Below, piece after piece: positions 1 through 16,446 of a stretch of DNA of 64,000 bases; within the stretch, counting starts at the first letter, position 1; the number at the start of each line of letters is the position of its first letter. The notes below the pieces were generated by a model. The model had not been told where the DNA came from, ran no database searches, and saw only the letters and a program-made list of their open reading frames with translations. Both the position numbers and the translations under genes were made by a program. This stretch comes from Alphaproteobacteria bacterium (GTDB taxonomy: Bacteria; Pseudomonadota; Alphaproteobacteria; Rhizobiales; CAJQND01), in assembly GCA_024227565.1 (NCBI GenBank), contig JAAEUE010000002.1:1-64000 (forward strand), written 5' to 3'.

Positions 1-66
1 CCGGATCGCAACAATAAACGGTTCAAAAAACACCCATTCCCCATCTTCCATCAACAGCCGAGCCAC
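1..66 (-). CDS. IS5-family transposase, N-terminal fragment cut by window edge
   Basis: A GTG start at 66-64 follows a strong Shine-Dalgarno sequence GAGGAGG (78-72) at 5-base spacing. The 22 visible residues begin MARLLMEDGEWVFFEPFI and read into the window edge. This Trp...Phe-Glu-Pro-Phe pattern is typical of the N-terminus of IS5-family DDE transposases (DUF4096-like region). The catalytic DDE residues are not visible, so activity cannot be judged. The gene lies inside the element that interrupts comM and points away from the ParB-like genes. Confidence 0.6.
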   Translation of the reverse strand, partial: MARLLMEDGEWVFFEPFIVAIR

Positions 67-136
67 AATAGCCTCCTCAAAAGCTACCGTGAATCACATC
101 TCAGATGATTTGGGAATCCAATTTGTCAACAGGACC
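1..136 (-). mobile_element. IS5-family insertion sequence, 5' end (partial)
   Basis: The minus strand reads from a candidate terminal inverted repeat (GGTCCTGTTGACAAA, 136 down to 122) through a short leader into a transposase start at 66. The sequence CTAG at 136-139 sits at the outer edge and fits the YTAR/TA target preference of IS5-group elements. The terminal motif resembles IS427-type ends of Rhizobiales as I remember them. The rest of the element and its second inverted repeat are beyond the left window edge, so the group assignment is provisional. Confidence 0.55.
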
Positions 137-423
137 TAGTTCGAACAATACTGTGTGGTTGATCTTTGGGGGTGTACTTTGAAAACTCTGATTGCCGGGA
201 GTCACCGCAATACACCCCAAACCTCAGCAGCCGCCGGATTGCAAGCTACTGCACCTGGCAAGGGCTAGTGGGCTTAGAACGGGTTCGCCGCCGTTCCCAC
301 TGTCGACATCGGTTTCCCGCCAACAAAGGCTCAGTTCCCTCCGTCGCTCCCGGCGCTTCATGGGTCCCGGTCCCCATCGCCACCTAACGGATTCGCCGAC
401 ATCGAATGAAGACAGCCTCAGCC
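137..423. other. Non-coding stretch between IS end and ParB-like gene
   Basis: No convincing gene, RNA or repeat is seen. Short open frames are present on the plus strand, but they have no recognisable product and the longest runs antisense into the neighbouring ParB-like gene. I found no copy of the comM junction sequence here, so the other attachment site is not in this stretch. Confidence 0.5.
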
Positions 424-1338
424 TTAAGAAATATCAGCCGTCAATGAAGGTGGCACAGTGTCGGTTGAAATGCTGTTTGCCAATGCCTGCAACTGGGTCA
501 GCAGTTCCTCGTGATAACGTGCGAGATACTTCGCTACGTGCTCATTGTTTAAGAGCCCCACAACGTACCCATTCGCAACCACCATCCTAAGAACGTTAGA
601 CCCATAATCGTCTTGGACAGCTTTCATATCTCGATTCAATCGTTCCATTTCCTGTTCCATTCGAACCCGCTCAGCCGGACTTATGCCTTGAAACTCCCTC
701 TTCTTCTTGGGTTCTTTCAACTGACCGTCAGATGTAGCGAGGAGTAGGGCGCGGGCGTACGAAATGGAGAAGTTATTTGCAGCTACCATGAGTTCAGCCA
801 TCTCAACCTGGCGCACCGGCTTCATCTTTCGCATTACTGCAATGGTGCCGGTCGGAAAATGCCGATCCTTCAGGGCCTCCGTGGCTTCTTTACAGATTCC
901 GTTGAGGAGGTTTCGCTTTGTACTTATCGATTGCACATTCACGCCGAGGGCCGTTGCAATTCGTTCTTGTGACGCGCCATTCTTAATCGCATTAAGGATC
1001 ATATAGTGTTCCTGAACGCTGGCTAGGCGACTGATCCTCTTATTGTACGTGAACGTTTCGTCCTCCTTCGCCAATAGGCAGGGTGCATGTTCGGCTCCGA
1101 TGTTTTTAAGAATCTGGAGCCTGACGTGACCGTCCAAGAGAGCATAGTTGGCCTGTCGTCCTTTCTGGAGAAACACGATCAGCGGCTCAACCAATCCAAC
1201 TTCTTTCACCGACATCTCGATCTGCTCGAACTTCTTGGATTTCGTGACGGTTTTGGGAACGACCTTGGTTGGTTGTATTTTCTCCAGTGGAATCTCGATG
1301 CGTTGCCGTTCAAAACCGATTGCGATCTTTTCTGTCAT
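424..1338 (-). CDS. RepB/ParB-type DNA-binding protein
   Basis: The 304-residue product looks like the plasmid-partition RepB family, which normally acts with RepA/ParA on centromere-like sites. A ParB nucleotide-binding fold lies at about residues 15-90, with GLVEPLIV followed by LLDGHVRLQ as the conserved boxes. A helix-turn-helix region follows at about 120-145 (ERIATALGVNVQSIS). A conserved block, KPVRQVEMAELMVAANN, and a charged, probably coiled C-terminal part (about 225-300) complete it. The ATG overlaps the end of the next ParB-like gene by 4 bases, so the two are probably translated together. No ParA ATPase gene accompanies it in the window. Family assignment is firm; the role in the element (segregation, recombination control or replication) is unknown. 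Confidence 0.8.
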   Translation of the reverse strand: MTEKIAIGFERQRIEIPLEKIQPTKVVPKTVTKSKKFEQIEMSVKEVGLVEPLIVFLQKGRQANYALLDGHVRLQILKNIGAEHAPCLLAKEDETFTYNKRISRLASVQEHYMILNAIKNGASQERIATALGVNVQSISTKRNLLNGICKEATEALKDRHFPTGTIAVMRKMKPVRQVEMAELMVAANNFSISYARALLLATSDGQLKEPKKKREFQGISPAERVRMEQEMERLNRDMKAVQDDYGSNVLRMVVANGYVVGLLNNEHVAKYLARYHEELLTQLQALANSISTDTVPPSLTADIS

Positions 1339-2224
1339 AGCACCGTGTTTCGGTCATTGACGAGATCAGCAAGTTGCCGGGGCAACGTGTTCAAATCCTC
1401 GGCCCTTAATAGGGTGACGAAGTTTTCGTCGTTGAAAAGCTCTTTTAGGGCAGACACTATGAAAAGCAGTCTTCGCTCCGTCAGGTCAGACTTGGCTATC
1501 AATGCCCTTTGCCGCTCTGTCTCCTGCTTGTAGGCTCTTACCAATGAGTCCGAGGTTATCTTCCTCGGAGAAGAGTGATTACCGGACCCGCCAATTGATT
1601 TGCCATGCCGATGTCTCAATTGGACGATTCGACGCGCAATTTGAAGTTTGCTGCCGCGCAATTCGTTCCTCTCATATGCATCGGCCAGCGCTTGTTGAAC
1701 ATTGTCGCCTTCGGCGCTAACGATGTCCATGGCCACAGTGATTGGCATCTGGCCTCGTTCGACTGCGGCGATCAGACGTTCCTCTCCGTGGCGCAGCAGG
1801 TGGATGATATCTCGAACATAGGGGGCAGTTAGCCCAGTTTTTTTGGCAATTTCTTCACACGGCAATCCTCGCTCGGCTAGTATTGATATCCCGGACATCA
1901 GCTCCATCGGGCTGTGTCTTCGCCTGGCAAGGTTCTCGACCAGACTCATCAGAAAACAGTCTTCCCTCGAAGCATCGATAACAATGGCGGGAATTTTTTT
2001 TGATCGAGAACCCTATAAGCCTCGATGCGACCTTGACCACATACGAGATCATAGAGATGCGATTTCCCGCTCGCTTTGGCCTTGCTAACAGTAATTGGCC
2101 TCTTCAGTCCAACCTGGGAGATGTTGTCAACAATGGTCTTGAACCTCCTCTTGTTCCGGTCCCGAGGATTTAAAATTTTGATCTGATCGACTGGGATCAT
2201 CTCGATATCGGTTCTCTTGTTCAT
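1335..2224 (-). pseudogene. ParB/RepB-type protein gene split by a frameshift at A8
   Basis: Two adjacent minus-strand frames together make one ParB-like protein of about 296 residues. The first (2224-1949) has the ParB start, LKRPITVSKAK and VCGQGRIEAYRVL, then ends in LRGKTVF. The second (1949-1335) opens with MSLVENLARRRHSP, a classic ParB box, followed by a helix-turn-helix (CEEIAKKTGLTAPYVRDI) and LLFIVSALKELF. Reading the second frame upstream gives KIPAIVIDASREDCFLMSLVEN, the sequence expected for the family, and the two frames meet at a run of eight A (2001-1994). The start codon shares one base with the recombinase stop. Either the gene is broken, or slippage at the A-run makes the full protein, or the run length is a sequencing error. 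TGATG at 1951-1947 could also allow re-initiation. Confidence 0.75.
1994..2001 (-). other. A8 slippery run at the ParB-like frameshift
   Basis: On the minus strand the codons read GAT CAA AAA AAA TTC. This contains A_AAA_AAA in the correct phase for -1 ribosomal slippage. A -1 shift, or insertion of one extra A by RNA polymerase, restores the family-typical sequence into MSLVENLARR. I did not identify a clear downstream stimulatory structure. Confidence 0.55.
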
Positions 2225-3810
2225 TACGCAACTTCCTGAAGAGGACAGCGCTCGGCCATATAGAATAAGTATCCAAGGTCGTCGTAACGATAAGTGTCCA
2301 AACCCACTCCATTTTCGTGGGCCAGCTTGAGCTGCCTCTCAGCGAAGACAATCCGGGGGAGTAGATAGTAATCGAGCGGTCCCTCGTTGGTTTCATCCAT
2401 GCGGACTGCAACGGTGATGTCGGGACGAAGACCTGCTTCAAGGCGTATCCTCCATCGAGAAGAGCCTGCGGGAGTTGCCTGACAACGAGCAATCACAATT
2501 GATATTCTGAACTCGCCATTGATGACCAATCCTTCGGTTACATGGTCCCAGATAGCCGTCGCGCCAAGTTCCATGATCTCAGACACAACGGAATCGACTA
2601 CGGTCGCGTGGTAGCGTCTGAGACGCCGGTTGATCTCGATGTAACGATAGTCCCTATCCGGCGTGAACCCGACGAGTTCGTATGCCCTCATCAGATTTCC
2701 AAATCTGCGGGCATATGCGCCGCTGAATGGGGCCGCTCCCGATTCATCAATCACCACGCCGGAAAGATATCCATACTTGGTGTAAAGCTGCTTCAACTTG
2801 GCCAGCATCTCTTCGTCGGTGAATCTTCTTGTCCGCTCCTGAATGATGCCTTCGGCCATATGGAATAATCGATCCGTGACAATTGGCTCGAATGCGCCTT
2901 CGCGTCTTACCCAAAGCTCCGGCACGTTCTTCGTCCTGTTCTTTTTCAGCTTGAAAGAAGTGCGATTAAAAACATTGTTGCCGATGTACTTCTCGTTCGT
3001 GAGAATCTGCCGAATGGTTCCACGTGACCATGGCCGTCGCAAATCAGTTCGAAGTCCTTCGGCGTTTAAGGAATTTGCAATCTCGGCTTCAGACTTTCCT
3101 TCCTCGACGAAGTGACGATAAATCCGATTCACGACGCTCACTTCTTCGGGCGGACCGGGGACCAAGATAACCCTGTCGGTTTGTAGGCTTTTATGTTGTC
3201 CACGCTCCAGAATCCCTTTGTGGGTACCGGCAGCATCAACCAGCATTCTCTTGAGCCCGTAGCCCGCCGGTCCTCCCTGGCGGAAGCCAAGCTCAATCAA
3301 TCGGCATTGTCCGACGAAGACCTTGTTTGAGAGCTCACGACTGTATTCGCCAGCCATCGCTCTTTTGACACTCTTGATGATAGTCGCATTTGGCGACCCG
3401 TCATTTTCAAATTGCTCGGCGCAGTAATGAACCGACACGCCAGAGTTTCTACAGATGTACTCGTAGTATGCGCCTTCGTCCGCATCTTGAAACCGGCCCC
3501 ATCTACTTATGTCGTAGACAATGATGGCATTGAACTGGATTTGATTGGTTTGTACGTCATCGATAAGTTGACTGAGCCCGGCGCGACCCGAAATCTTTAA
3601 CCCACTCTTTCCTGAATCTGAATACGTCCTGACGATTTCCATATTGTGGCGTTCAGCGTAGCTGCGGATGGCGTCAGATTGATTTTCGATTGAGTATTTT
3701 TGATGCTCTGTGGACATCCTCACATACATGGCCGCGCGGATTCGTGACCCAGGATCGTCCGTCGTGCCCCCCAAGAGACTCGTCGGAATCGTGCATACGC
3801 AACTGCCCAA
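2224..3810 (-). CDS. Large serine recombinase (site-specific integrase)
   Basis: The 528-residue protein belongs to the large serine recombinases, which integrate and excise elements through a serine-DNA intermediate. The resolvase domain covers about residues 26-165. It has YVRMSTEHQKYSIENQ with the likely nucleophile Ser33, and the arginine-bearing YDISRWGR motif (Arg103, Arg106). The recombinase domain follows at about 185-290, including GTIRQILTNEKYIGN. I see no paired CxxC zinc-ribbon motif, so this is a variant of the phage-integrase type. The gene is the first of the three-gene set and its 5' end faces the comM junction 175 bases away, as expected for an integrase beside its attachment site. 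A later start at Met28 is possible. Confidence 0.9.
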   Translation of the reverse strand: MGSCVCTIPTSLLGGTTDDPGSRIRAAMYVRMSTEHQKYSIENQSDAIRSYAERHNMEIVRTYSDSGKSGLKISGRAGLSQLIDDVQTNQIQFNAIIVYDISRWGRFQDADEGAYYEYICRNSGVSVHYCAEQFENDGSPNATIIKSVKRAMAGEYSRELSNKVFVGQCRLIELGFRQGGPAGYGLKRMLVDAAGTHKGILERGQHKSLQTDRVILVPGPPEEVSVVNRIYRHFVEEGKSEAEIANSLNAEGLRTDLRRPWSRGTIRQILTNEKYIGNNVFNRTSFKLKKNRTKNVPELWVRREGAFEPIVTDRLFHMAEGIIQERTRRFTDEEMLAKLKQLYTKYGYLSGVVIDESGAAPFSGAYARRFGNLMRAYELVGFTPDRDYRYIEINRRLRRYHATVVDSVVSEIMELGATAIWDHVTEGLVINGEFRISIVIARCQATPAGSSRWRIRLEAGLRPDITVAVRMDETNEGPLDYYLLPRIVFAERQLKLAHENGVGLDTYRYDDLGYLFYMAERCPLQEVA

Positions 3811-3956: not shown

Positions 3957-3986
3957 CCAATTCAAATCATACATGAATTAATTGGA
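3957..3986. other. Inverted repeat at element/comM junction, candidate attachment site
   Basis: CCAATTCA is followed 9 bases later by TGAATTAATTGG, an imperfect inverted repeat ending at the first recognisable comM codon. Serine integrases bind such imperfect dyads as attachment sites. The position, next to the recombinase gene and at the point where comM homology begins, supports a hybrid attachment site. The crossover dinucleotide cannot be fixed without the other junction. Confidence 0.5.
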
Positions 3987-4889
3987 TATAATATGCTCAT
4001 GGTCGGACCGCCAGGTTCTGGTAAGTCCATGCTGGCGCAGCGGCTACCCTCCATCCTGCCGCCCATGGATCCTATGGAGATGCTAGAGGTTTCGATGATT
4101 GCGTCGGTCGCCGGAGAGCTCACGGGCGGCAGCCTTTCGCGGCGGCGGCCGTTCCGCAACCCGCATCATTCGGCGAGCCAAGCTGCCCTCGTGGGTGGCG
4201 GTCACCGGGCCTCCCCGGGCGAAATGGCTTTGGCCCACAGCGGCGTTCTGTTTCTCGACGAACTGCCGGAATTTCAGCCGAAAGTGCTCGATTCATTGCG
4301 CCAGCCCATGGAGACGTTCGAAACGGTGATCGCCCGGGCCAACCATCACGTGACGTATCCGGCCCGGTTTCAGCTGGTTGCAGCCATGAACCCTTGCAAA
4401 TGTGGACATGCAGGAACGCCCGGGCACACTTGCCGCCGCGGCCCGCGCTGTGCTGACGATTATCAGGCCCGGGTGTCCGGCCCCCTCCTGGACCGCATCG
4501 ATCTGCAGATAGAGGTGCCTCCGGTGCGGGTGATGGACCTGAGCCTGCCGGAGGCAAAAGAAGGCAGCGCCGAGGTTGCTGGCCGGGTCGCCCGCGCCCG
4601 CGCCCTGCAGACCGAGCGTTTTGCGGGCTTAGGTTTGAAGGACCTGCGCCTGAACATCCAAGCCGACGACGAAGTGCTCGAGACCATCGCCATGCCCGTA
4701 TCTGACGGCTTGACGCTGTTGCAGGACGCAGCGGAAATGATGGGTCTTTCCGCCCGTGGCTATCACCGCGTGTTGCGTGTAGCCCGCACCTTGGCCGATC
4801 TGGCCGGCGTTGCCGACGTGGGACGGGTGCACATTGCCGAAGCGTTGAACGTCCGTCAGAAATTGTCACCCGGGCGGTTGGCCGCTTAA
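3984..4889 (+). pseudogene. comM: comM/yifB Mg-chelatase-like AAA ATPase, C-terminal remnant
   Basis: ComM (YifB) is a hexameric AAA+ helicase that promotes branch migration in natural transformation. Usual length is about 500 residues; about 300 remain here. Present are Walker A (GPPGSGKS at 4005-4028), Walker B with the sensor region (GVLFLDELPEF), FQLVAAMNPCKCGH and the C-terminal Mg-chelatase domain ending SPGRLAA. The N-terminal Lon-protease-like half is missing: upstream of ATG 3993 the frame leads into element DNA and meets a stop at 3954. A fragment could start at ATG 3993, but there is no good ribosome site and it lacks the N-terminal domain. The 5' half should lie beyond the left end of the element. 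Excision would restore the gene. Confidence 0.9.
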
Positions 4890-5073
4890 GCGGACCTTCT
4901 GAAGATCACCGGATGCGAATGACTGAAACTGGAGCCGAACAGGCAGAATTTCAGCTGCTGACCGGTTAACTATATTCATTAGTCATAAACACTATCAAAA
5001 TTGAAATGATACAAGTGGCACACTTTCTTGATATTGTGCTTGCGACGGGGGTCGTTCTGCTTTGAGTGCTTAA

Positions 5074-7347
5074 ATGGCCGATGCGCCTGCCCAAGTGATT
5101 CCAGATGCTGCACAGGAGGGCGGCAAGGTCATCCCTGCGCCCGCAGCGGCCGGCCAACGTGATGATCCGCTTCTGTCCTGCCTGGAATATGTCACCGGGT
5201 ATTACGGCAAACCGTTCTCTGCTGAAGCAGCTTTGAACGGATTGCCCGTGCGCGATGGCAACTTGTCTGCAGATCTGGTGATCCGTGCAGCTGAACGCCT
5301 AGGGCTGAAGGCGCAATTGCTGAAGCGCAAGGTTAGCCGCGTTCCTGCCCTGGTGGCGCCGTTTGTGGTCTTGCTCACAGATGGGACCGCCTGCGTGGTG
5401 TTGCGCAAAACGAACCGCGGACGAAAGGTTCAGGTGGTCTTTCCCAGCGTGTCAAAACGCCGGAAAACACTCAAAACCCGCGAGTTGGAAAAGAACGCCT
5501 CAGGTTATGTGTTCTACATAACACCCCAAGAATCTGACGCCACGGAGGATGCCCTTCCGTCCTCGCGCGAGGTTCAGCGCGGTCACTGGTTCTGGTCGTC
5601 GGCCAAACAGTTTTGGCCCTCATGGATCCAAATACTGCTTGCCGCCCTGGCCATAAACATGCTCGGGCTTGCCGTGCCGCTTTTCGTGATGAATGTCTAC
5701 GACCGGGTTATTCCCAATTTGGCGATCCCCACCCTTTGGGCTCTGGCCAGCGGCGTTGTGATCGCCTTGCTCATCGATTTTCTCTTAAAGCAATTGCGCG
5801 CCATGGTGCTCGATCAAACGGGCCGCAGGGTCGATATGAAAGTGGCCTCCACGTTGTTTGAGCATGCCATGGATCTGAAAATGAGTTCCCGCCGCGGACC
5901 GGCCGGGTTTGTGGCAAACCAGATCCGCGAATTTGAGACAGTGCGTGATTTCTTCACCTCTTCAAGTTTCGTGGCAATCACCGATCTCTTGTTTATTGGC
6001 CTGTTCGTGTTCGTCCTGTGGATGATCGTGGGCCCAATCGCCTATGTGGCGCTGGGCGCGGTGCCGGTCGTGATCATCGCCACCTTGATCATTCAGGCGC
6101 CGCTCGGCCGGTTGGTAAAGAAAAGCCAGGCCGAACTGGCCCGCCGTCACTCCATACTCGTGGAAGGCCTGGTGGGGATCGAAGCCATCAAGGCGATTGG
6201 TGGCGAAGGTGTGATGCAACAAAGATGGGAAAACGCCGTTGCCGCAACCGCGCGTGTGAATTCCTGGACCAGGGTGTGGTCATCGCTGGCCATCTACTTC
6301 ACCGCCACGGTGCAACAAGCGGTCAGCGTGGTGATGATCGTCTGGGGTGTATACTTGGTGGCCACTGGTGACATAACCATTGGCGGCCTGATCGCCGCCA
6401 ATATTTTGGCCGGCCGTGTCTTGGCCCCTCTGGGCAATATCTCTCAAACATTGGTTCGCGCCCAGCAGGCATTCGCGGCCATGCGGGGGTTGAACGGCTT
6501 CATGGCCCTGCCGGCCGAGCGCAACAACGCCCTGCAGGGCGGCGAACAGGTGACGCGCGGCGAAGCTGAATTTCAGAACGTTACCTTTGCCTATCCTGAC
6601 GCAAGCGGGAACGCGTTGAGTGATGTGTCATTCAAGATTTCCGCTGGCGAAAGGGTTGGCATCATCGGTCGTGTTGGGTCCGGCAAGACCACGATTGGCA
6701 AGTTGCTTGCTGGATTCTTCGAACCTGACGAAGGCTCACTCCTGGTGGATGGTGTGGAGATCCGGCGTTATCACCCAGCTGACCTCAGGGCCGGGGTCGG
6801 GTACCTGGCGCAGGATCCTGAGTTGTTCAACGGGTCCATCAGAGACAACATCATCCTTGGTCGACCCAACGTGAGCGAGCAGCAGGTGGCCGCGGCGGTG
6901 CATTTGGCCGGGGTGGATGTGTTTACTGCGGCTCATCCTGAAGGTCTGGCCCGAGAGGTGGGAGAGCGCGGACGCGCCTTGTCCGGTGGCCAACGTCAGG
7001 CAATCACCCTGGCGCGCATGCTGATCAGGAAGCCGCGCGTTCTGTTCCTGGATGAGCCGTCCAACTCCATGGACACCACAACCGAAGGTGTGTTGATTGA
7101 ACGGCTGATGGGTTTGCGTGAAACCGGCCAAACTTTGATCGTCTGCACCCATCGGCATTCCATGCTGCGATTGGTGGACCGGCTGATCGTCATTGACAGC
7201 GGCACCATCGTGACCGATGGCCCGACGCAAGAGGTGCTGGATAAGCTGCGCGGCAAGGCCAAAGCCCAAAAGGCCGCACAAAAGACCACGCAGAAAACGG
7301 TGCAAAAAGCCGCTCCAAAACGTAGCCGGGGAGCCAGCGCCAAATGA
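5074..7347 (+). CDS. Type I secretion ABC transporter (permease/ATPase)
   Basis: This 757-residue inner-membrane exporter resembles LapB/HlyB proteins that power one-step secretion of RTX proteins. Residues about 30-120 form a peptidase-C39-like domain without the catalytic Cys, the type that binds rather than cleaves its substrate. Membrane segments span about 185-450. The ATPase domain has Walker A GRVGSGKTT (about 531), the signature LSGGQRQ (about 635), Walker B VLFLDEPSNSMD and the His-loop CTHRHS. The last 35 residues are an unusual Lys/Ala/Gln-rich tail. The gene overlaps the HlyD-type gene by 4 bases, so the two form one unit. The outer-membrane TolC partner is not in the window. The likely substrate is the RTX gene just downstream. 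Confidence 0.9.
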   Translation: MADAPAQVIPDAAQEGGKVIPAPAAAGQRDDPLLSCLEYVTGYYGKPFSAEAALNGLPVRDGNLSADLVIRAAERLGLKAQLLKRKVSRVPALVAPFVVLLTDGTACVVLRKTNRGRKVQVVFPSVSKRRKTLKTRELEKNASGYVFYITPQESDATEDALPSSREVQRGHWFWSSAKQFWPSWIQILLAALAINMLGLAVPLFVMNVYDRVIPNLAIPTLWALASGVVIALLIDFLLKQLRAMVLDQTGRRVDMKVASTLFEHAMDLKMSSRRGPAGFVANQIREFETVRDFFTSSSFVAITDLLFIGLFVFVLWMIVGPIAYVALGAVPVVIIATLIIQAPLGRLVKKSQAELARRHSILVEGLVGIEAIKAIGGEGVMQQRWENAVAATARVNSWTRVWSSLAIYFTATVQQAVSVVMIVWGVYLVATGDITIGGLIAANILAGRVLAPLGNISQTLVRAQQAFAAMRGLNGFMALPAERNNALQGGEQVTRGEAEFQNVTFAYPDASGNALSDVSFKISAGERVGIIGRVGSGKTTIGKLLAGFFEPDEGSLLVDGVEIRRYHPADLRAGVGYLAQDPELFNGSIRDNIILGRPNVSEQQVAAAVHLAGVDVFTAAHPEGLAREVGERGRALSGGQRQAITLARMLIRKPRVLFLDEPSNSMDTTTEGVLIERLMGLRETGQTLIVCTHRHSMLRLVDRLIVIDSGTIVTDGPTQEVLDKLRGKAKAQKAAQKTTQKTVQKAAPKRSRGASAK

Positions 7348-8663
7348 TCGGGCGCCGCGATCAGGAGTTTGCCAACGACGTGCGGGCCGCATTGGATGAG
7401 CGCGCACCCAGAACCACCTGGATCCTGATCTTGTTCATCTGCGCTTCTTTTGGGGGGCTGATTTTCTGGGCCAGCCGGGCGACTCTGGAAGAAGTCACCA
7501 CGGGGTCGGGCAGGGTTATTCCCTCGCGGCAAATTCAAGTTGTGCAAACTCTGGAGGGCGGCATCGTTCGCGAAATCTCCATCGGGGAGGGCGATCTTGT
7601 TGAGAAAGATCAGATTCTGATGCAGATCGACGATACCGGATTTGCCTCAAAGTTGGGCGAAATCAAACAACGGCGCTGGGCTTTGATGGCAGAGATTGCC
7701 AGGCTGACCGCAGAAGGCAATGGGGCTGGTTCGATTGCCAACGACCCGGATCTGGTGAAACACGCGCCCCAAGCCCTTTTGTCCGAGCGCGCCGTATTCC
7801 GCTCTCGCCGCGCCAAGTTGTTGGAGGATGAATCCATTCTTGAGCAGCAGCTGATCCAGAAACAAAAAGAGCTGGAAGAGTTTAGCGCTAAACGCGACAA
7901 GCTTAGGGCTACACGCAAGCCCCTGGCCCGCGAGGTGAAACTGACCGAGGCGCTCTATAAGCGGAAGGTTGTGCCAGAGGTAGAGTTCCTGCGCCTGCAG
8001 CGGCAGATGGCCGAAATTGACGGGGAATTGGCGATTGTGAACGCTGCTTTGCCGCGCGCGGAATCCTCCATCAAGGAATCTCGAAACCGGCTGCACTCGG
8101 CCAGTGTCTCGTTCCAACTGCAGGCCCGCGAACGCTTGGCGAAAATTCAACCTGAACTGGCGATCATCGATGAGACCATCAAGGCGGCTGAGGACCGGGT
8201 CACCCGAACCGCCCTGAAAGCACCGGTGCGCGGCATCATCAACAAGCTGAACGTGACCACTATCGGCGCCGTAGTGCAGCCGGGCAAAGACATTATCGAG
8301 ATCGTGCCACTCGACGACACATTGCTGATCGAGGCCCAAATACGGCCCCAGGATGTGGCCTTCATTCGCCCTGACGAGAAGGCGAGCGTGAAACTCACGG
8401 CATACGATTACCTGATTTATGGCGCGCTGGAAGGCACGATTGAACGGATCGGGGCGGACACCATCACCGACGAGCGAGGCGAGCGCGTGTATCGGGTTAT
8501 CGTGCGCACCAAGCAAAACCATCTGAAAACGGTGAAGGGCAATCTGCCGATCATTCCGGGCATGGTGGCAACGGTGGATATTCAAACCGGTGAGAAAACC
8601 GTTCTGGACTATTTGCTCAAACCCATCCGCCGCGGCCAGAAAGAAGCTCTGAGAGAGCGCTGA
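7344..8663 (+). CDS. HlyD-family periplasmic adaptor of type I secretion
   Basis: The 439-residue membrane fusion protein links the ABC exporter to an outer-membrane channel. A cytoplasmic N-terminus is followed by one membrane helix (about residues 26-48, WILILFICASFGGLIFWA). The lipoyl/barrel half-motif VVQTLEGGIVREISIGEGD comes next, then a long alpha-hairpin coiled coil (about 110-275) and the second half-motif APVRGIINKLNVTTIGAVV. The C-terminal beta-barrel ends in a conserved VDIQTGEKTVLDYLLKPI block typical of the family. It starts within the exporter gene (ATGA overlap). Length and layout are normal, so it appears functional. Confidence 0.92.
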   Translation: MIGRRDQEFANDVRAALDERAPRTTWILILFICASFGGLIFWASRATLEEVTTGSGRVIPSRQIQVVQTLEGGIVREISIGEGDLVEKDQILMQIDDTGFASKLGEIKQRRWALMAEIARLTAEGNGAGSIANDPDLVKHAPQALLSERAVFRSRRAKLLEDESILEQQLIQKQKELEEFSAKRDKLRATRKPLAREVKLTEALYKRKVVPEVEFLRLQRQMAEIDGELAIVNAALPRAESSIKESRNRLHSASVSFQLQARERLAKIQPELAIIDETIKAAEDRVTRTALKAPVRGIINKLNVTTIGAVVQPGKDIIEIVPLDDTLLIEAQIRPQDVAFIRPDEKASVKLTAYDYLIYGALEGTIERIGADTITDERGERVYRVIVRTKQNHLKTVKGNLPIIPGMVATVDIQTGEKTVLDYLLKPIRRGQKEALRER

Positions 8664-8926
8664 GCGGCAAACAGAGAAATCCACCTGAAGTGGCATTTCC
8701 CACATAAATACTTCACGTCATTAGATAATCTCTCATTGACTTTAGGTAAGCCTGGCCGCAATCTTGCTGGGTTAGGGCGAAGTATTTGACGTGACGGCAA
8801 TCCATCCATTGGACCAGAGGCAAGTTTGGGTCTTGGGTGGTAAACTTTGCTCTACCTCTGGAACACATGTGTCTAGACACCGGGCGGGCCTAAATGTCGT
8901 AAGACGTTTGAGAGGCCGGCGTTGCC

Positions 8927-9166
8927 ATGCGCAGTTTGTTTGCAGGACCGGGGGACGGTTTCCTGGTTCTCGAGGTGGCCCCGGATGGGAAGCCGCTCAC
9001 GATACCTGACGCCCATTTTCTGTTCACCGCCGAGTATGACCGTGCCGGCAGCGATCTGATCCTCAGCGATCACGCTGGCAAGACCATTATTGTTCAAGGT
9101 TATTTTGCCACCCCAACCCCGGTTGACCTGGCATCGCCAATGTGGAGATCGATGTGTCAGAGGTGA
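8927..9166 (+). pseudogene. N-terminal fragment of a large RTX-type secreted protein
   Basis: The 79-residue frame has a recognisable N-terminal block: GFLVLEVAPDGKPLTIPDA, then FTAEYDRAGSDLILSDHAGK and VQGYFATPTPVDLAS. As I remember them, large type I-secreted adhesins of alphaproteobacteria begin this way. After VDLASP the frame degenerates into MWRSMCQR and stops. The next gene, in another frame, starts within its last 25 bases with a sequence that normally sits deep inside such proteins. I infer an internal deletion that removed a long repeat region and shifted the frame. Alternatively, an assembly collapse of repeats produced the same picture. The 263 bases upstream hold no gene that I can see. 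Confidence 0.5.
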
Positions 9167-10620
9167 GCGGCGCGTTTATCAATGTGTCGTTCGTGTTTGA
9201 TGCATCCGGAAGCCTGGGCTCATCCGCATATGGCGTGCAAATGGATGCAATCCAGACGGCGATCAACAACATGCGCACCCAGTTCGCCGGGTCCCAAACT
9301 CAGATCGATGTACAGCTGGTTCGTTTCGCCTCTGTCGTATCCACAGTTGAGGTGGATCTCTACGACAGCAGCCTAAACAACGTGAAAACCTTGTTGCCCT
9401 TCACCGGTGGCGGCACAAACTTTGATGCGGCTCTTTTCGCTGCAAAGAACTTTTTTGACGGAGAGCCCGCCGGCGAACAGGATTTCCTCTTCTTTACCTC
9501 TGATGGGCAACCGTCTAATTTCGCCTTTAACCCGCCCTGGGAGACCACTGCTCAGAACCTGAAGGATGATGACGTTATTATATCGGCCTTCGGGATTGGT
9601 CCCTTCATTTCGCCAGTCACCCTCAACCAGATCGACAATACAGGCGGATCTGAGAATGTTGCATCCGTGAATGATCTGTCAGATGCCTTTTCCGCCACAC
9701 CGATCTTCGCAGCACAGTTGACCGACTTTTCGCTGAAGCTTGTTGCCGACGGGGTCAATCACGGTGAGGTCGCCACAGAGGCCGATCTTCAGCCCGATGG
9801 CGTGAACTCTGATCTGCCCCTTGCGGATGTGCCGGGCATTGCCGGTCTGTTGGGTGAGGTCAATCTGCTCACAGCCGCCGCCACATTCGATTTCGATGGT
9901 GACTTGAACACGACGGTTGATCAGATAACGTTGTTCTCGGCCGAGGCCGTCTCCGCCTCTCCGGATTCGGCGACAAAGTCGGGTACGGCGGGGAACGATC
10001 TGTTGCTGGGCGGCTTTCAAGACGATGAAATCGGCGGCGGCGCCGGCAACGATATTATCCTGGGCTTTGCCGGCGATGATCTGTTGAATGGCGACGGCGG
10101 GAACGACACAATCCTTGGTGGCGGAGGCGGCGACACTCTGATCGGCGGGGCCAATCATGACCGGCTGCAGGTTAGCGATGCAAACTTCCTGATGGTGGAT
10201 GGCGGCAGCGGCCAAGACACCCTGGTTTTGGACGAAACCGATCTGGACTTCACAACCGTCAATCTGGCGCGGTTCGCCAGCATTGAAGCCATCGACCTGA
10301 AAGAGGGCGGGCCGGTTTCAATCAAGCTTGGCCTGGCGAGCATCACTGCCCTGTCAGAGACCGGCAACGATGACCTGGACACCGTGCTGGACACCCTTCA
10401 CGGCGCGGCCAATGCCCCCGATGAAAGCTTGGTGGTGAGCGGCGGCGCCGGCGATGCAGTCGAACTTGCGCCCAGTGCCGAAGGTGAATGGTACCTGACC
10501 AACACCGAGGCGTTTGCCGACCACGACATCTATACCTTCGAAACCAACACAGGGTCGGTTCTGGCAGCGGTGGCGATCGATGACGATGTGGCCGTTACCG
10601 GAGCAAATGTTCCTTCCTGA
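9142..10620 (+). CDS. VWA-domain RTX protein, probable C-terminal part of a secreted adhesin
   Basis: A von Willebrand A domain covers about residues 15-185, with the metal-site motif FVFDASGSLGS and the later TGGGTNF and FFTSDGQPSN. RTX calcium-binding nonapeptides follow at about 280-340, including GTAGNDLLLGG, GGAGNDIILGFAGDD and GGNDTILGGGGGDTLIGG. The C-terminus, with few charged residues and ending near VAIDDDVAV, is of the type recognised by type I secretion. The GTG at 9142 has no ribosome-binding site and lies inside the previous frame, so this is more likely the rear of a broken gene than an independent one. The exporter and adaptor genes just upstream are the likely secretion route. 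Folding would need extracellular calcium. Confidence 0.7.
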   Translation: MEIDVSEVSGAFINVSFVFDASGSLGSSAYGVQMDAIQTAINNMRTQFAGSQTQIDVQLVRFASVVSTVEVDLYDSSLNNVKTLLPFTGGGTNFDAALFAAKNFFDGEPAGEQDFLFFTSDGQPSNFAFNPPWETTAQNLKDDDVIISAFGIGPFISPVTLNQIDNTGGSENVASVNDLSDAFSATPIFAAQLTDFSLKLVADGVNHGEVATEADLQPDGVNSDLPLADVPGIAGLLGEVNLLTAAATFDFDGDLNTTVDQITLFSAEAVSASPDSATKSGTAGNDLLLGGFQDDEIGGGAGNDIILGFAGDDLLNGDGGNDTILGGGGGDTLIGGANHDRLQVSDANFLMVDGGSGQDTLVLDETDLDFTTVNLARFASIEAIDLKEGGPVSIKLGLASITALSETGNDDLDTVLDTLHGAANAPDESLVVSGGAGDAVELAPSAEGEWYLTNTEAFADHDIYTFETNTGSVLAAVAIDDDVAVTGANVPS

Positions 10621-10704: not shown

Positions 10705-12927
10705 ATGTTTGCAGTCTTAAAGAAGATTGGTCGTTGGTTCGGCGCGGGCCGAGCGCTTGGCCTGGCCCTGCTGGCCTTCTTTGTGGCCATGCAGGTGTGG
10801 AACCCCCTGCCGCTTCACGCGGTGCGCCTTAAGGTGTTCGACTTCTACCAACAACTTCAGCCGCGCGAGCAAAAAGGCTATCCGGTGGTCATTGTCGATA
10901 TTGACGACAAGAGCCTCGCCGAAGAGGGCCAGTGGCCTTGGCCGCGCACCCGGGTGTCGGACATGGTTTTGGAGGTCACCCGGCTTGGCGGCGTGGCGGT
11001 TGCCTTCGATATCTTGTTCTCAGAACCAGACGGCACATCGCCTGCCGAGTTTGCCCGTCGGGTTGGCAGCATTGATGCAGAGACCAAGAAGAAGCTAATG
11101 ACCCTGCCGAGCAATGACGGGGTTCTGGCCCTGGCATTCAAACGAAAAGCCGTGGTGCTGGCCCAGTCTGGTTACCATCAGAAATCTGTTTGGAAAGGCG
11201 CAAAGAAGCCACCCACTACAGGCATTGCAACAATCGGCCAGGACCCCACGAACCGGTTGTTGAGTTACAAGGGGATCCTTCGGAACGTCCCGATCCTTGA
11301 GTATAACGCGGCAGGCCGCGGCATGGTGTCAGTGTTGCCCGACTGGGACGGCGTCGTGCGTCGGGTGCCCCTGCTGCAATATGCAGACGGCAAGATTGTG
11401 CCGTCCATCACCATGGAGATGCTGCGTCTTCTCACCGGCTCAAGTGCCGTAGGCGTTAGGGCAAACGCTGCAGGCGTCAGCCAGGTGTTCGTCAAGGGCT
11501 TGAAAGTGCAGACCGATGCCAATGCCCACCTATGGGTTCACTTCAACAAGCATGACCGCAAGCGCTACGTGTCTGCGATTGACCTATTGAACAAACGGGT
11601 GCCTGCAGAGCGTGTGAAAAACAAGATCGTTATGGTTGGCACATCCGCCACGGCACTTTTCGACATCAAGTCAACTCCGCTGGATCCGGTTCTGCCAGGC
11701 GTTGAGATCCATGCCCAGGTGCTGGAAAGCCTGCTCACCAAAACCCAGCTCAAGCGGCCGAACTTTGCCCATGTCAGCGAGTTGGCCCTGTCCATCGGCG
11801 TTTCCCTTGCCATCATCGCCGCAGCGCCGGTGTTTGGCGCGCTGACCGTTCTGATGATGGGCGGTGCGATGGCGGCGGGGGTTGTGGGAACTTCCTGGTG
11901 GTACTTCTCAACACAAGGCTTGCTGCTCGATGCCTTCTACCCGCTGGCAACTGCGCTGATCATTTTCTCCGCCATGGTGTTCTTCAACTACATGCGCGAA
12001 GAATCCCAGCGGCGCCAGATCAGGGGCGCGTTCGGGCAATATCTCTCGCCGGATCTCGTCGACCAACTGGCAGATGATCCTGAGAAGCTCACCCTTGGCG
12101 GCGAGACCCGGGAACTCACCATTCTGTTCAGCGACGTGCGCGGATTCACGTCGATTTCGGAAACCTACAAGTCCGATCCCCAAGGCCTGACAAAGCTGAT
12201 CAACCGCCTGCTAACCCCGTTGTCTCACGTGATCCTGGACAATAACGGTACCATCGACAAGTACATGGGCGACAACGTCATGGCGTTCTGGAACGCGCCA
12301 CTGGATGATGACCAGCACGCCGAGCACGCCTGTCTGTCTTCGTTGCAAATGCTGGAGGCTCTTGAGAAGCTCAATGCAGAACGCCTGATTGAGGACAAGG
12401 AGGCCGGTCGAGAGTCCCTGCCGCTGCACGTGGGTGTGGGCATCAACACCGGCGAATGCGTGGTCGGCAATGTGGGGTCCGACATGCGTTTTGACTATTC
12501 GGTTCTGGGCGATGCGGTGAACCTGGCGGCCCGCCTGGAAGGCCAAACCAAGGGCTATGGTGTGGATACAATCATCGGTCAGATTACGGCTGGCCGGGTA
12601 AAAGGCAAATTTGCCCTGTTGGAGCTCGATGTCATCCGGGTGAAAGGCAAAACCGAACCTGAGGTGATCTTCAGCATTGTCGGCACCGAACAAATGGCGC
12701 GCGATGCCGACTTCCTTGCCCATGAGGAAAATCACACCCAATTGCTCGCCGCTTACCGCGCAATGAAATGGCCACAAGCCCGCAAGCTCATCAAGACCTG
12801 TCGCCAGAGCGGTGAGAAATTCGACCTCTCCGGCCTCTACGATCTTTATGAAGAGCGCATTTCCGCCTTCAAGAAGGCGCCTCCGCCGAAGGGCTGGGAT
12901 GGCGTGTTCACGATGGAAACCAAGTAG
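10705..12927 (+). CDS. CHASE2-domain adenylate/guanylate cyclase
   Basis: The 740-residue membrane sensor makes a cyclic nucleotide, probably cAMP. After one N-terminal membrane helix, a periplasmic CHASE2 domain spans about 35-335 (VVIVDIDDKSLAEEGQWPWPR near its start). Three further membrane helices lie at about 355-430. The class III cyclase domain covers about 450-640: LFSDVRGF carries the first metal Asp (about 475), DKYMGDNVMAFWNAP the second, and VLGDAVNLAARLEG the nucleotide-binding segment. A helical tail follows. The gene is followed 108 bases later by a histidine kinase in the same direction, so the two may respond to related envelope signals. The signal sensed is unknown. Confidence 0.9.
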   Translation: MFAVLKKIGRWFGAGRALGLALLAFFVAMQVWNPLPLHAVRLKVFDFYQQLQPREQKGYPVVIVDIDDKSLAEEGQWPWPRTRVSDMVLEVTRLGGVAVAFDILFSEPDGTSPAEFARRVGSIDAETKKKLMTLPSNDGVLALAFKRKAVVLAQSGYHQKSVWKGAKKPPTTGIATIGQDPTNRLLSYKGILRNVPILEYNAAGRGMVSVLPDWDGVVRRVPLLQYADGKIVPSITMEMLRLLTGSSAVGVRANAAGVSQVFVKGLKVQTDANAHLWVHFNKHDRKRYVSAIDLLNKRVPAERVKNKIVMVGTSATALFDIKSTPLDPVLPGVEIHAQVLESLLTKTQLKRPNFAHVSELALSIGVSLAIIAAAPVFGALTVLMMGGAMAAGVVGTSWWYFSTQGLLLDAFYPLATALIIFSAMVFFNYMREESQRRQIRGAFGQYLSPDLVDQLADDPEKLTLGGETRELTILFSDVRGFTSISETYKSDPQGLTKLINRLLTPLSHVILDNNGTIDKYMGDNVMAFWNAPLDDDQHAEHACLSSLQMLEALEKLNAERLIEDKEAGRESLPLHVGVGINTGECVVGNVGSDMRFDYSVLGDAVNLAARLEGQTKGYGVDTIIGQITAGRVKGKFALLELDVIRVKGKTEPEVIFSIVGTEQMARDADFLAHEENHTQLLAAYRAMKWPQARKLIKTCRQSGEKFDLSGLYDLYEERISAFKKAPPPKGWDGVFTMETK

Positions 12928-13035
12928 CGATTTATTCGCATGGCGTCCTGATCTGGCACGCCGGCTTTATGGTTTCTCAAGCCAATTGTGACAAGGTGAA
13001 GCGTGGGGTAGAGCACGAAATTCACCAGGCGACAC

Positions 13036-15264
13036 ATGACGAGTACCGATAGTTCCATGGACACAGTTTCGTCCATTCCTATTGAGGAGCGGCGTTCGCT
13101 GCACCGGCGCCTGATGCGTGGGGGCCGTCGCAGCCTTGACCGGGACTGGCTGCAATTTGGTTTGGGCGGGGTGTTGGCGCTTAGCATGATCCCCATGCTG
13201 GTGCTTGTCTTGTCGTTCTACTATCTGCCCGACGCCAACACGGCGACCCTCCAGCTTGCGTTGGGGCTGGCGCTTATCTCTGCGATAAGTGTGGCGGCGG
13301 CCTGGTTGATTGCGCGCGCCAGGATGGAAAAGCTGCGCGAGCGCACGGCCAAGCTCGAAGCTTCCACAGCCAGATACCAAGGGCTGGTTGAGGCCCAGGG
13401 CGATCTGATCGTGCGACGCAAGCCCGACGGCACGGTCACCTTTGCCAACAACAACTTGGCCAAGCTGCTTAAGAAGAACAGTGACGAGATGTGCGGCCGG
13501 AGGCTTGGCTTGAGCATCCTCGATGGGCAGGCAACGCCGCTGGCCGAGGTGCTGGAAAGGCCGCCCCACCGGGTGCGCTATGAGCAGCAGATTAAAACCA
13601 AGGCCGGAACAATCTGGGTGCTTTGGGAAGACTTCGGGTTGGTTGATCTGCAATCGGGGAATCTTCTGGAGATTCAAAGTTCAGGGCGCGACATCACCGA
13701 GCTGAAATCTGTGATGCACAATCTGTCTGTGGCCAAAGAGGCGGCGGAAGCGGCAAGCCATTCCAAGTCGGGATTTCTGGCCACCATGAGCCATGAAATC
13801 CGCACACCCATGAACGGGGTGCTGGGCATGGCCGGGTTGCTGCGCGGAACGACGTTGACGCCGGAACAGGAATCCTACACCGACGCCATTCAGGATTCCG
13901 GACGGGCGCTCGTGTCCCTGATCGACGATATCCTGGATCTCTCCAAGATCGAGGCCGGCAAGATGGATTTGTCCATCAAGCCTTTCGATCTGGTGGAAAT
14001 TCTGGAAAGCACCTGCGAGCTTCTGGCCCCCAGGGCCCATGAGAAGGGCCTGGATATCGCCTGTTATGTAGACCCTCGTTTGGCGGGCAACGTTGTGGGC
14101 GATCCTGCCCGGCTGCGCCAAGTGTTGCTCAATTTGGCCGGCAACGCCGCCAAGTTCACAGACGCAGGTTCGGTGATGATCACCGCTGAAGCCGAACGTG
14201 GCTCGAGCGCCGTGTTGGTAACGGTCAGCGATACTGGGATTGGCATGACGCCGGAGGACACAGACAAAGTCTTCCATGCCTTCACGCAAGCTGACAGTGG
14301 CCATGATCGCAGTTATGGCGGCACGGGCCTGGGGCTGGCGATCTCGCAAAAGCTGGTCAAGCTTATGGGTGGAAGCCTGCGGGTAACATCTGAACTTGGG
14401 GAAGGGTCAAGCTTTTCGTTCAGCATCAATCTGCCCCGTGCAGATGATAAAAGCCCAGCCCTTGAGCGGCCGCTTGAGGGCAGAACCTTTGTGCTGGCCG
14501 GGCTTGATGAGGCCACCAGAAAATGTGCCGCAAGCTACATTGAGAGTTGGGGCGGCCGGGCCAAGTGGACCAACAGTGCCCACGCCCTGGATGCGATGAT
14601 TCAATTGAGCAAGCCGGAGTGTTTGGTGTGCGGACCTGAATTGGCGCGCACCTATGAGGCGACGGGCGCACGGCCAAACCACAGCCTTGTGGTTATGCCG
14701 CCCTCTGCCCGGAAGGAAATCGGCGATGGAGCTGAACTCGGGTTCTCCGGATATCTGGTGACGCCCATTCGGCAAGCCACCCTGAAACGCGAGCTTTCGC
14801 CCGAAACCGGGCACAGCGCAACCGGCAAGAAACCAGCCAGAGCGCCCAAGCCGGCGCCTGATCATGTGGCGCTGAACATCTTGCTGGTGGAGGACAATCC
14901 CCTGAACGCCATGCTGGCGCTCAAGGTGCTGGAGAACGCCGGTCACAAAACCAGCCGGCTCAGCAACGGCCAGGAAGTGGTCGACAAGATCCAGGCTGAT
15001 CTGGCCGACCGGGCAGATGATCTGCCCGACGCCATCTTGATGGACGTGCAGATGCCTGTGCTCGATGGGTTGATGGCGACCCGGAAAATCCGCGCGCTTG
15101 AGAGCGATGACGATGGTGAGATCCCCATTGTGGCTCTCACGGCGAATGCGATGCCTGAAGACCGTGAGGCCTGCCTGGAGGCGGGCATGAACGCCTATCT
15201 GGCCAAGCCGTTCGATGTCGATGACCTGTCTGCGGTTCTACAGAATGTCACGGGCAACAATTGA
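13036..15264 (+). CDS. Hybrid sensor histidine kinase/response regulator
   Basis: The 742-residue protein has two membrane helices (about residues 45-100) and a PAS domain at about 115-220 (LVEAQGDLIVRRKPDG). The HisKA domain has the phosphorylated His in MSHEIRTPMNG (about 252). An ATPase domain follows at about 360-475 with the N box LNLAGNAAKFTDAG, DTGIGM and GTGLGLAI. Residues about 485-590 look like a degenerate receiver without the acidic pocket. A complete receiver at about 612-740 has LLVEDNPLN, the phosphoacceptor Asp in ILMDVQMPVLDG (about 670), and Lys in LAKPFD. It resembles the pleC/barA/DivJ style of hybrid kinases. No partner regulator lies beside it, so the target is unknown. 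Confidence 0.92.
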   Translation: MTSTDSSMDTVSSIPIEERRSLHRRLMRGGRRSLDRDWLQFGLGGVLALSMIPMLVLVLSFYYLPDANTATLQLALGLALISAISVAAAWLIARARMEKLRERTAKLEASTARYQGLVEAQGDLIVRRKPDGTVTFANNNLAKLLKKNSDEMCGRRLGLSILDGQATPLAEVLERPPHRVRYEQQIKTKAGTIWVLWEDFGLVDLQSGNLLEIQSSGRDITELKSVMHNLSVAKEAAEAASHSKSGFLATMSHEIRTPMNGVLGMAGLLRGTTLTPEQESYTDAIQDSGRALVSLIDDILDLSKIEAGKMDLSIKPFDLVEILESTCELLAPRAHEKGLDIACYVDPRLAGNVVGDPARLRQVLLNLAGNAAKFTDAGSVMITAEAERGSSAVLVTVSDTGIGMTPEDTDKVFHAFTQADSGHDRSYGGTGLGLAISQKLVKLMGGSLRVTSELGEGSSFSFSINLPRADDKSPALERPLEGRTFVLAGLDEATRKCAASYIESWGGRAKWTNSAHALDAMIQLSKPECLVCGPELARTYEATGARPNHSLVVMPPSARKEIGDGAELGFSGYLVTPIRQATLKRELSPETGHSATGKKPARAPKPAPDHVALNILLVEDNPLNAMLALKVLENAGHKTSRLSNGQEVVDKIQADLADRADDLPDAILMDVQMPVLDGLMATRKIRALESDDDGEIPIVALTANAMPEDREACLEAGMNAYLAKPFDVDDLSAVLQNVTGNN

Positions 15265-15328
15265 CGGGGCTTTGGTTCTGGTATCAAACTGAGCACCGGT
15301 TTGAGATCAAGCGAGTGGGCGGCCTGAG

Positions 15329-16153
15329 GTGTCACAATCTCTTTCAACGGGGCATCTTCCTGATGCCCAGAACGATGTGCGGCCGGTTGGGCTGCAACGC
15401 GGAACCATTGGCCTGAAGATCGCGGAAACCGCCGCCGAACAGGAAGCCTGCCAGGCCCTGCGCTACAAGGTGTTCTATGAAGACGGCGGCGCCAGCGCCA
15501 ATGCCCAGGCCCTGGCAAACAAGCTGGATGCGGACGGCTATGACGACATCTGCGACCATCTTCTGGTGACCGACGGCGAGCACGCCGTGGGCACCTACCG
15601 CCTGTTGCGCCAGGACCGGTTGGGACCGGGTCAGGACTTCTACTCCCAAGGCGAGTTTGACCTGGCGCCTCTTCTCGCCGCAAAGCCGGATTTGAGGTTT
15701 CTGGAACTGGGGCGCAGCTGCGTCCTGGCGGAATACCGCACCAAGCGGATCATTGAGCTTCTGTGGCAGGGGATCTGGGATTATGTGCGCGCCCATCAGC
15801 TGGATGTGATGATCGGGTGCGCCAGCTTGGGCGGCACGGATACCAGTCAGCTGTCCCACCAGCTGTCCTATTTGCATCACCACCATTTGGCGCCGGAAGA
15901 CTGGCGCGTGGTCGCCCACCCGGAACACTGCGCAAGCATGGACAAGGTGGCCGCCGGCGAACTTGACGCCAAGCGGGCGCTGAAGGCCATTCCACCGCTG
16001 GTGAAGGGCTATCTTCGGCTCGGCGGCTACGTGGGCGAGGGCGCGGTGATTGATTACCAGTTCAACACCACGGATGTGCTGATCATCCTGCCGGTGTCGG
16101 CCATCAATCCGCGCTATTTTGCCCGGTTCGGGGCACCTGGCGAGCCGCGGTGA
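15329..16153 (+). CDS. OlsB-type N-acyltransferase (ornithine lipid synthesis)
   Basis: The 274-residue protein belongs to the hemolysin-like GNAT acyltransferases. The best known member, OlsB, transfers a 3-hydroxyacyl chain from acyl carrier protein to the amino group of ornithine, giving lyso-ornithine lipid. Family motifs visible are CQALRYKVFYEDGG, then DHLLVTDGEHAVGTYRLL, RFLELGRSCVLAEYR and VMIGCASLGGTD. The start is a GTG at 15329 with a weak ribosome site. The second enzyme OlsA, an acyl-transferase of the PlsC family, is not adjacent; the PlsC-like gene at 29908 sits in a core operon. The substrate could be another amino acid, since several family members acylate glutamine, lysine or glycine. 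Confidence 0.75.
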   Translation: MSQSLSTGHLPDAQNDVRPVGLQRGTIGLKIAETAAEQEACQALRYKVFYEDGGASANAQALANKLDADGYDDICDHLLVTDGEHAVGTYRLLRQDRLGPGQDFYSQGEFDLAPLLAAKPDLRFLELGRSCVLAEYRTKRIIELLWQGIWDYVRAHQLDVMIGCASLGGTDTSQLSHQLSYLHHHHLAPEDWRVVAHPEHCASMDKVAAGELDAKRALKAIPPLVKGYLRLGGYVGEGAVIDYQFNTTDVLIILPVSAINPRYFARFGAPGEPR

Positions 16154-16167
16154 TTACCTCTTCCCGC

Positions 16168-16240
16168 ATCCCTGCGAAGGCAGGGATCCATTGAGACACT
16201 CCGCGCACTGAGAGCTATGGGCTCCTGCTTTCGCAGGAGC
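16168..16240. repeat. Tandem dispersed palindromes (CCTGCGAAGGCAGG type)
   Basis: Two perfect 8-base stems: ATCCCTGC-gaag-GCAGGGAT (16168-16187) and GCTCCTGC-tttc-GCAGGAGC (16221-16240). Closely similar hairpin pairs are a familiar dispersed intergenic repeat of alphaproteobacteria. They follow the 3' end of the acyltransferase gene and could protect its mRNA or act as weak terminators. Confidence 0.7.
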
Positions 16241-16336
16241 GCGGGGGTGTCGTGCGCCAGGGCCGCGCGCGATGATGAACAGAAATACTCACTCAAAAAG
16301 GCCAAATAGGCCGAATTTCAGCCCAAAAACAGAACC

Positions 16337-16360
16337 TTACGCGAAATTGGGTTCGTTTCG
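16337..16360. repeat. 24-base intergenic repeat, copy 1
   Basis: This sequence (TTACGCGAAATTGGG followed by TTCGTTTCG) is identical to 50490-50513. It contains GCGAAA...TTTCGC, which with one extra base here forms a 6-base stem around ttgggttcg. In this copy, 10-base inverted arms flank the repeat (about 16322-16332 and 16369-16379), so a larger hairpin is possible. Its function is unknown. Confidence 0.65.
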
Positions 16361-16446
16361 CAGAGTCGCTGTTTTTGGCAGAATCCTGCGGTTGAACATG
16401 AACAGCCAACTTCACATAAATCAACTTTTTAGTGGCAGTTTGCCAC

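Follow-up and report, generated by a model that had tools for sequence, protein, structure and literature searches.

A serine recombinase operon with two ParB/RepB-like proteins, conserved without ParA, and its probably decayed copy at an interrupted comM gene

The window, i.e. the whole stretch of DNA that was analysed, covers contig C2 from its start to 64 kb in a genome of 418 contigs, the assembly of which is 86.5% complete. Near its left end lies a minus-strand operon in which the gene for a large serine recombinase (2224-3810; 528 aa as listed, from a TTG start, the true start possibly lying further in) is followed by genes for two RepB-like proteins, A and B, the gene ends overlapping, as the ORF coordinates show. 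Protein A is read in two pieces: the N-terminal half (1949-2224, minus strand, frame 1) has a ParB-type N domain with the motif CGQGR, and the C-terminal half (1335-1949, minus strand), in a different frame, has the motif SLVENLARR and PF07506. The reading frame is lost at a run of eight A on the minus strand (1994-2001; eight T on the plus strand), whereas the homologues have a single ORF. Protein B (424-1338, minus strand) combines ParB_N with PF07506 and keeps DGHxR, the Glu of ENxxR being replaced (FTYNKRISRL). On the 3' side of its gene there is a diverged copy of a structured RNA-like or folded-DNA element (247-375, minus strand; model R1, see below), and the contig edge holds the end of a multicopy IS (1-134, minus strand), recognised by eye from the N-terminus of its transposase. 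To the right of the operon, on the plus strand, follow the right att arm of a comM insertion (3972-3995, of the GAATTAATTGGATATAATATG type, assigned by comparison with the arms of comM islands), an inferred crossover dinucleotide CT (3996-3997) that is common to the left junction (contig C57:176-177), and the C-terminal part of comM/yifB (3993-4889; model positions 211-499). Beyond comM, the region 5074-10620 contains ORFs with a likeness, judged by eye, to an ABC transporter of type I secretion, to a membrane fusion protein and to an exported protein rich in repeats.

The sequence-only reading had described the operon as a mobile unit of two ParB-like proteins and a recombinase. All three genes are present, but the window does not literally encode two intact ParB-like proteins, because the halves of protein A lie in different frames. 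The frameshift could be a sequencing error (a homopolymer error is possible) or could mark a pseudogene; a programmed frameshift as a conserved feature is ruled out by the single ORF of the homologues. Three signs of decay, namely this frameshift, the weakness of the structured-element copy and the absence of an upstream gene, suggest that the copy is probably decayed and non-functional. The missing gene is a small, divergent one that lies 5' of the recombinase gene in alphaproteobacterial trio copies (e.g. L060:8466-8849, L068:1650-2072, L111:8239-8832 and L175:8355-8720, all on the minus strand); two of its products were tested and matched phrog_23106, and one has an HTH.

As a unit the trio is not a product of chance: it is retained in some 100 other loci, and the order recombinase-A-B is found in nearly all homologues that were examined, in alpha-, beta- and gammaproteobacteria, on plasmids and in viral contigs. 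The recombinase occurs in 19 of 289 sampled genomes of the class, and in the sufficiently long loci from this sample the three genes have the same order and strand, with a distant relative (L048) as the one clear exception. A scan of GTDB species genomes returned 583 relatives of the recombinase, the best 80 of which lie in loci that keep the trio order, barring cuts at contig ends or a broken gene. Plasmid records with the recombinase number 61, and all five annotated examples that were opened have two overlapping ParB/RepB-like genes behind it. In a viral collection both ParB-like genes follow the recombinase gene in 54 of the 67 contigs with enough room, the exceptions being mostly distant recombinases (roughly 44% identical). 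The lack of a ParA, remarked upon for the window, is likewise a property of the homologues: the ParA-type Walker motif KGGxGK[ST], used as a simple motif test in place of a profile search, was present in none of 100 trio loci (ORFs up to about 9 kb on either side), and no ParA gene is annotated beside the trio in the opened plasmid examples. Since the trio is conserved without ParA across the three bacterial classes, the plasmids and the viral contigs, the regular presence of a parA in homologous elements, which had been named beforehand as evidence against a role outside partitioning, did not occur. The natural reading of these associations would be that the ParB-like proteins are partners of the recombinase.

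The recombinase has the Pfam Resolvase catalytic and Recombinase domains (both in 18 of the 18 members checked), as do the phiC31, Bxb1 and SPbeta/TP901-1-type integrases, and the catalytic Ser and Arg columns are invariant in the alignments A1/A6. The nearest solved structures are serine integrases, which match over the first ~320 residues (fold model pTM 0.44). It differs from the canonical large serine integrases in that none of the 18 members matches the zinc-ribbon recombinase domain of Pfam at E 0.01 and in that the C-terminal ~150 residues have no assigned domain; the predicted fold of this C-terminus, a low-confidence model, matched no solved structure. In large serine integrases a partner protein that controls the direction of recombination is the rule; where the canonical enzymes have one unrelated RDF, the trio has two ParB-like partners. 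At L030, a 57-bp imperfect direct repeat (714-768 and 5072-5128; 81%) brackets the trio and could represent its own attachment sites.

Both accompanying proteins match PF07506 (RepB) and protein B also ParB_N. Protein A retains the two ParB motifs, i.e. GxxR (as CGQGR) and ENxxR (as SLVENxARR), and its profile matches the structures of Spo0J, Noc, ParB and KorB, which places it close to the CTPase-clamp family. Protein B retains GxxR (DGHxR) and departs from that family in having lost the Glu of ENxxR; its best structural match is Noc, and Noc structures are the best or nearly the best match for both proteins. By analogy with the biochemistry of ParB and Noc, protein A may both bind CTP and hydrolyse it, and protein B may bind it without hydrolysis. 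What sets the pair apart from the family is, besides the altered motif of B, that both proteins are fixed companions of a recombinase and have no ParA. The suggestion that this would be a new use of the ParB fold needs qualification: independence of ParA is not by itself new, since Noc, a ParB-family protein already known to work without ParA, is among the best structural matches of the pair. As possible parS sites, visual inspection revealed only short palindromes close to the left junction. The PADLOC models of defence systems, run against the three trio proteins, yielded no system and a weak match of a methyltransferase model to the ParB_N domain of B.

Most alphaproteobacterial trio copies carry, some 10-90 bp 3' of gene B, a block of ~123 nt that is conserved far better than the trio proteins themselves. 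A model built from 23 loci contains five helices with 26 pairs, in which 97.2% of the cells are paired, and eight of the base pairs show double, compensatory changes. The covariation of the element (0.237) exceeds that of all 500 shuffles (mean 0.116) and of the slid controls (at most 0.105), and none of the covariance models of Rfam 15 matched it up to E = 1. We therefore regard the element as an uncatalogued family with clear covariation, which may be an RNA or a folded DNA. Model R1, from the training set of which the window was left out, matches once in the 64 kb (247-375; 78.2 bits, E 3.6e-15), and this copy is considered diverged because it scores 78 bits versus about 110-140 in most other copies. 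The block is not a coding sequence, given the stop codons and single-base indels within it, and a guide RNA seems unlikely, given its few variable positions and the lack of a target match by eye. The DNA shared between related pairs of elements often stops near the 3' end of the block. At L060 the element and ~70 bp are duplicated (12342-12537 and 17376-17571; 87% identity) around two cargo genes, the duplication beginning exactly at the 5' end of the element.

The element does not follow the trio everywhere. It is absent downstream of the trio in the betaproteobacterial branch, in the largest related group of which the downstream region looks like a coding gene, so that an RNA was rejected there. 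Weaker but still clear copies were found in genomes that are not alphaproteobacterial; they adjoin phage tail genes, number up to three per genome and lack the trio, except at L373, where element and trio are both present. A strict partnership with the trio is thereby ruled out. The trio-less copies (L374-L383 and L387), most of them next to phage tail genes, come from another class of the phylum. Two further candidates were dismissed: apparent orphan elements in G093, G159, G175 and G205 are trio remnants with the end of a RepB gene still upstream, and the repeats of a seemingly integron-like cassette array at L121 are duplicated small genes and not copies of the element.

Several Rhodobacterales loci (including L068 and L071, which indicate a prophage context) and nine viral contigs show the succession trio, element and tail genes, the latter in convergent orientation. 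Three loci, L068, L071 and L091, adjoin tRNA-fMet. Other trios reside on plasmids or have defence genes as neighbours, for instance Wadjet JetC. From the tail-gene and tRNA-fMet loci together with the plasmid and defence-gene contexts we conclude that the trio would be an integration module of phage type, used by islands and plasmids as well. We do not extend a phage origin to all trios, as some plasmids and defence islands show no phage genes nearby. At L082, a JetC-like Wadjet gene and its neighbours (12649-17892, minus strand) lie directly 3' of the trio.

The surroundings of the window copy point to a gene interruption. On its right lies comM/yifB without its N-terminal part, which is found on contig C57; the remaining C-terminal 58% begins at model position 211. 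The gene is cut at the Walker A motif, where the junctions share CT in the Leu-Leu codons that precede MVGPPGSGKS, and the reconstruction of comM from both junctions is supported by the intact comM of relatives. Split comM genes (e.g. L222-L229) are present in about thirty of 397 genomes of the order, which makes comM a frequent target of insertions, roughly twenty of them being split at the Walker A spot, and all eight of the Walker-A insertions examined for gene content have a different serine recombinase, usually adjoining a junction. This recombinase belongs to a distinct family (KAYSYVRFSTPEQ...) with near-palindromic att arms. In four further genomes (G442, G423, G595 and G340; L233-L236) comM is split at model positions ~245 and ~305 by inserts of ~5 kb, which lack the Walker-A recombinase.

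That the trio recombinase itself inserted an element of ~4 kb into comM, the window then holding a minimal self-mobile trio element, has a few points in its favour. The start of the recombinase gene and the right junction are ~190 bp apart, the integrase of the comM islands is not found in this genome's assembly, and the two contig ends fit a single IS insertion (consistent orientation, CTAG target), in which case the element would measure about 3.9 kb. Against these stand the sharing of the same comM dinucleotide with islands in relatives that carry another integrase, and the fit of the window's right arm to theirs: on a weight matrix of 13 island right arms, compiled by hand from comM-island junctions, it scores 16.5, which exceeds the leave-one-out maximum of 15.9 and is the top score among all 24-mers of the window. 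The left arm, unlike the right one, does not fit the comM-island pattern. Moreover, among the ~100 other trio loci a position in comM was seen once, in G293, where the comM-island integrase flanks the site. As to the contig ends, a direct join of C57, the IS and C2 would be parsimonious but is unproven, because the IS at both ends occurs in about six copies in the genome; and in an assembly that is 86.5% complete the comM-island integrase may lie in a gap or may have been lost. We consider insertion by the trio recombinase rather unlikely. The right-arm fit and the comM islands with another integrase, together with G293 as a case that has both, indicate that the trio in comM is probably a passenger or a remnant of an island inserted by another serine integrase: the window shares the cut site and the right att arm, but not the left one, with the comM-targeted islands of the order, and has the trio where those usually have their integrase. 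The notion of the window trio as a unit mobile at its own site is weakened accordingly by the match of the insertion to islands of another integrase.

What the pair does for the module is a separate matter. It might consist of KorB/Noc-like transcription regulators of the module rather than of recombination factors, KorB and Noc being among its relatives by sequence and structure, and ParB-family proteins being known to bind to DNA and spread on it. However, the pair strictly co-occurs and overlaps with the recombinase gene, which speaks for a direct partnership, and in many trio copies the upstream position is already taken by a divergent HTH-like gene of its own, so that we hold this reading to be possible though the less expected one. 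The genes could also be leftovers of the partition system of a plasmid or phage-plasmid, as the name of PF07506 (after RepB of the repABC plasmids) and the presence of the trio on plasmids might suggest; yet the lack of the ParA motif in 100 trio loci, the constant tie of both paralogues to the recombinase and the conservation across three classes of proteobacteria make such an origin quite improbable. The explanation that we favour, by a modest preference, is that the window holds a decayed copy of a widespread integration-lysogeny module of temperate phages and of the islands and plasmids that derive from them, in which the ParB-like pair are partners of the recombinase, within a comM island of another integrase. 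The recombinase would cut and join the attachment sites, and the two ParB-family paralogues of the same operon would act as its dedicated accessory partners, without ParA. Most likely they would load on sites near the ends of the element and either bring these together or determine when and in which direction recombination runs. Direction, synapsis and regulation are each plausible as the exact job of the pair, judged from sequence. In alphaproteobacteria the module would end with the conserved structured element, and in the window it would lie inside, or be left over from, the island that another serine integrase placed in comM. A more specific version, a new type of serine-integrase system in which the two paralogues (A likely a CTPase clamp, B degenerate) replace the control by zinc ribbon and RDF known from canonical integrases and in which the alphaproteobacterial structured RNA or DNA is a fourth part, is put forward as speculative and on balance doubtful.

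The nearest precedent is the ssrA-specific integration module of Dehalococcoides islands, a serine recombinase module (DsiB/DsiA) with a conserved gene for a ParBc-domain protein (PMC3146451). By its description it differs in that it has a single ParBc gene as well as a second, small recombinase and other genes, and in that its target is ssrA (PMC3146451). In the open-access literature searched, no description of the trio or of the structured element was found, which is no proof of novelty.

The comM case illustrates that a junction cannot be credited to an integrase just because the latter lies next to it. The structured element, independent of the role of the pair, is an uncatalogued family that is linked both with an integrase module and with the tail regions of phages, and it is open to immediate study. 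If the pair indeed controls the recombinase, ParB clamps would gain a role in site-specific recombination, and the module would amount to a nucleotide-switched integrase, which would be useful for phage biology as well as for genome engineering.
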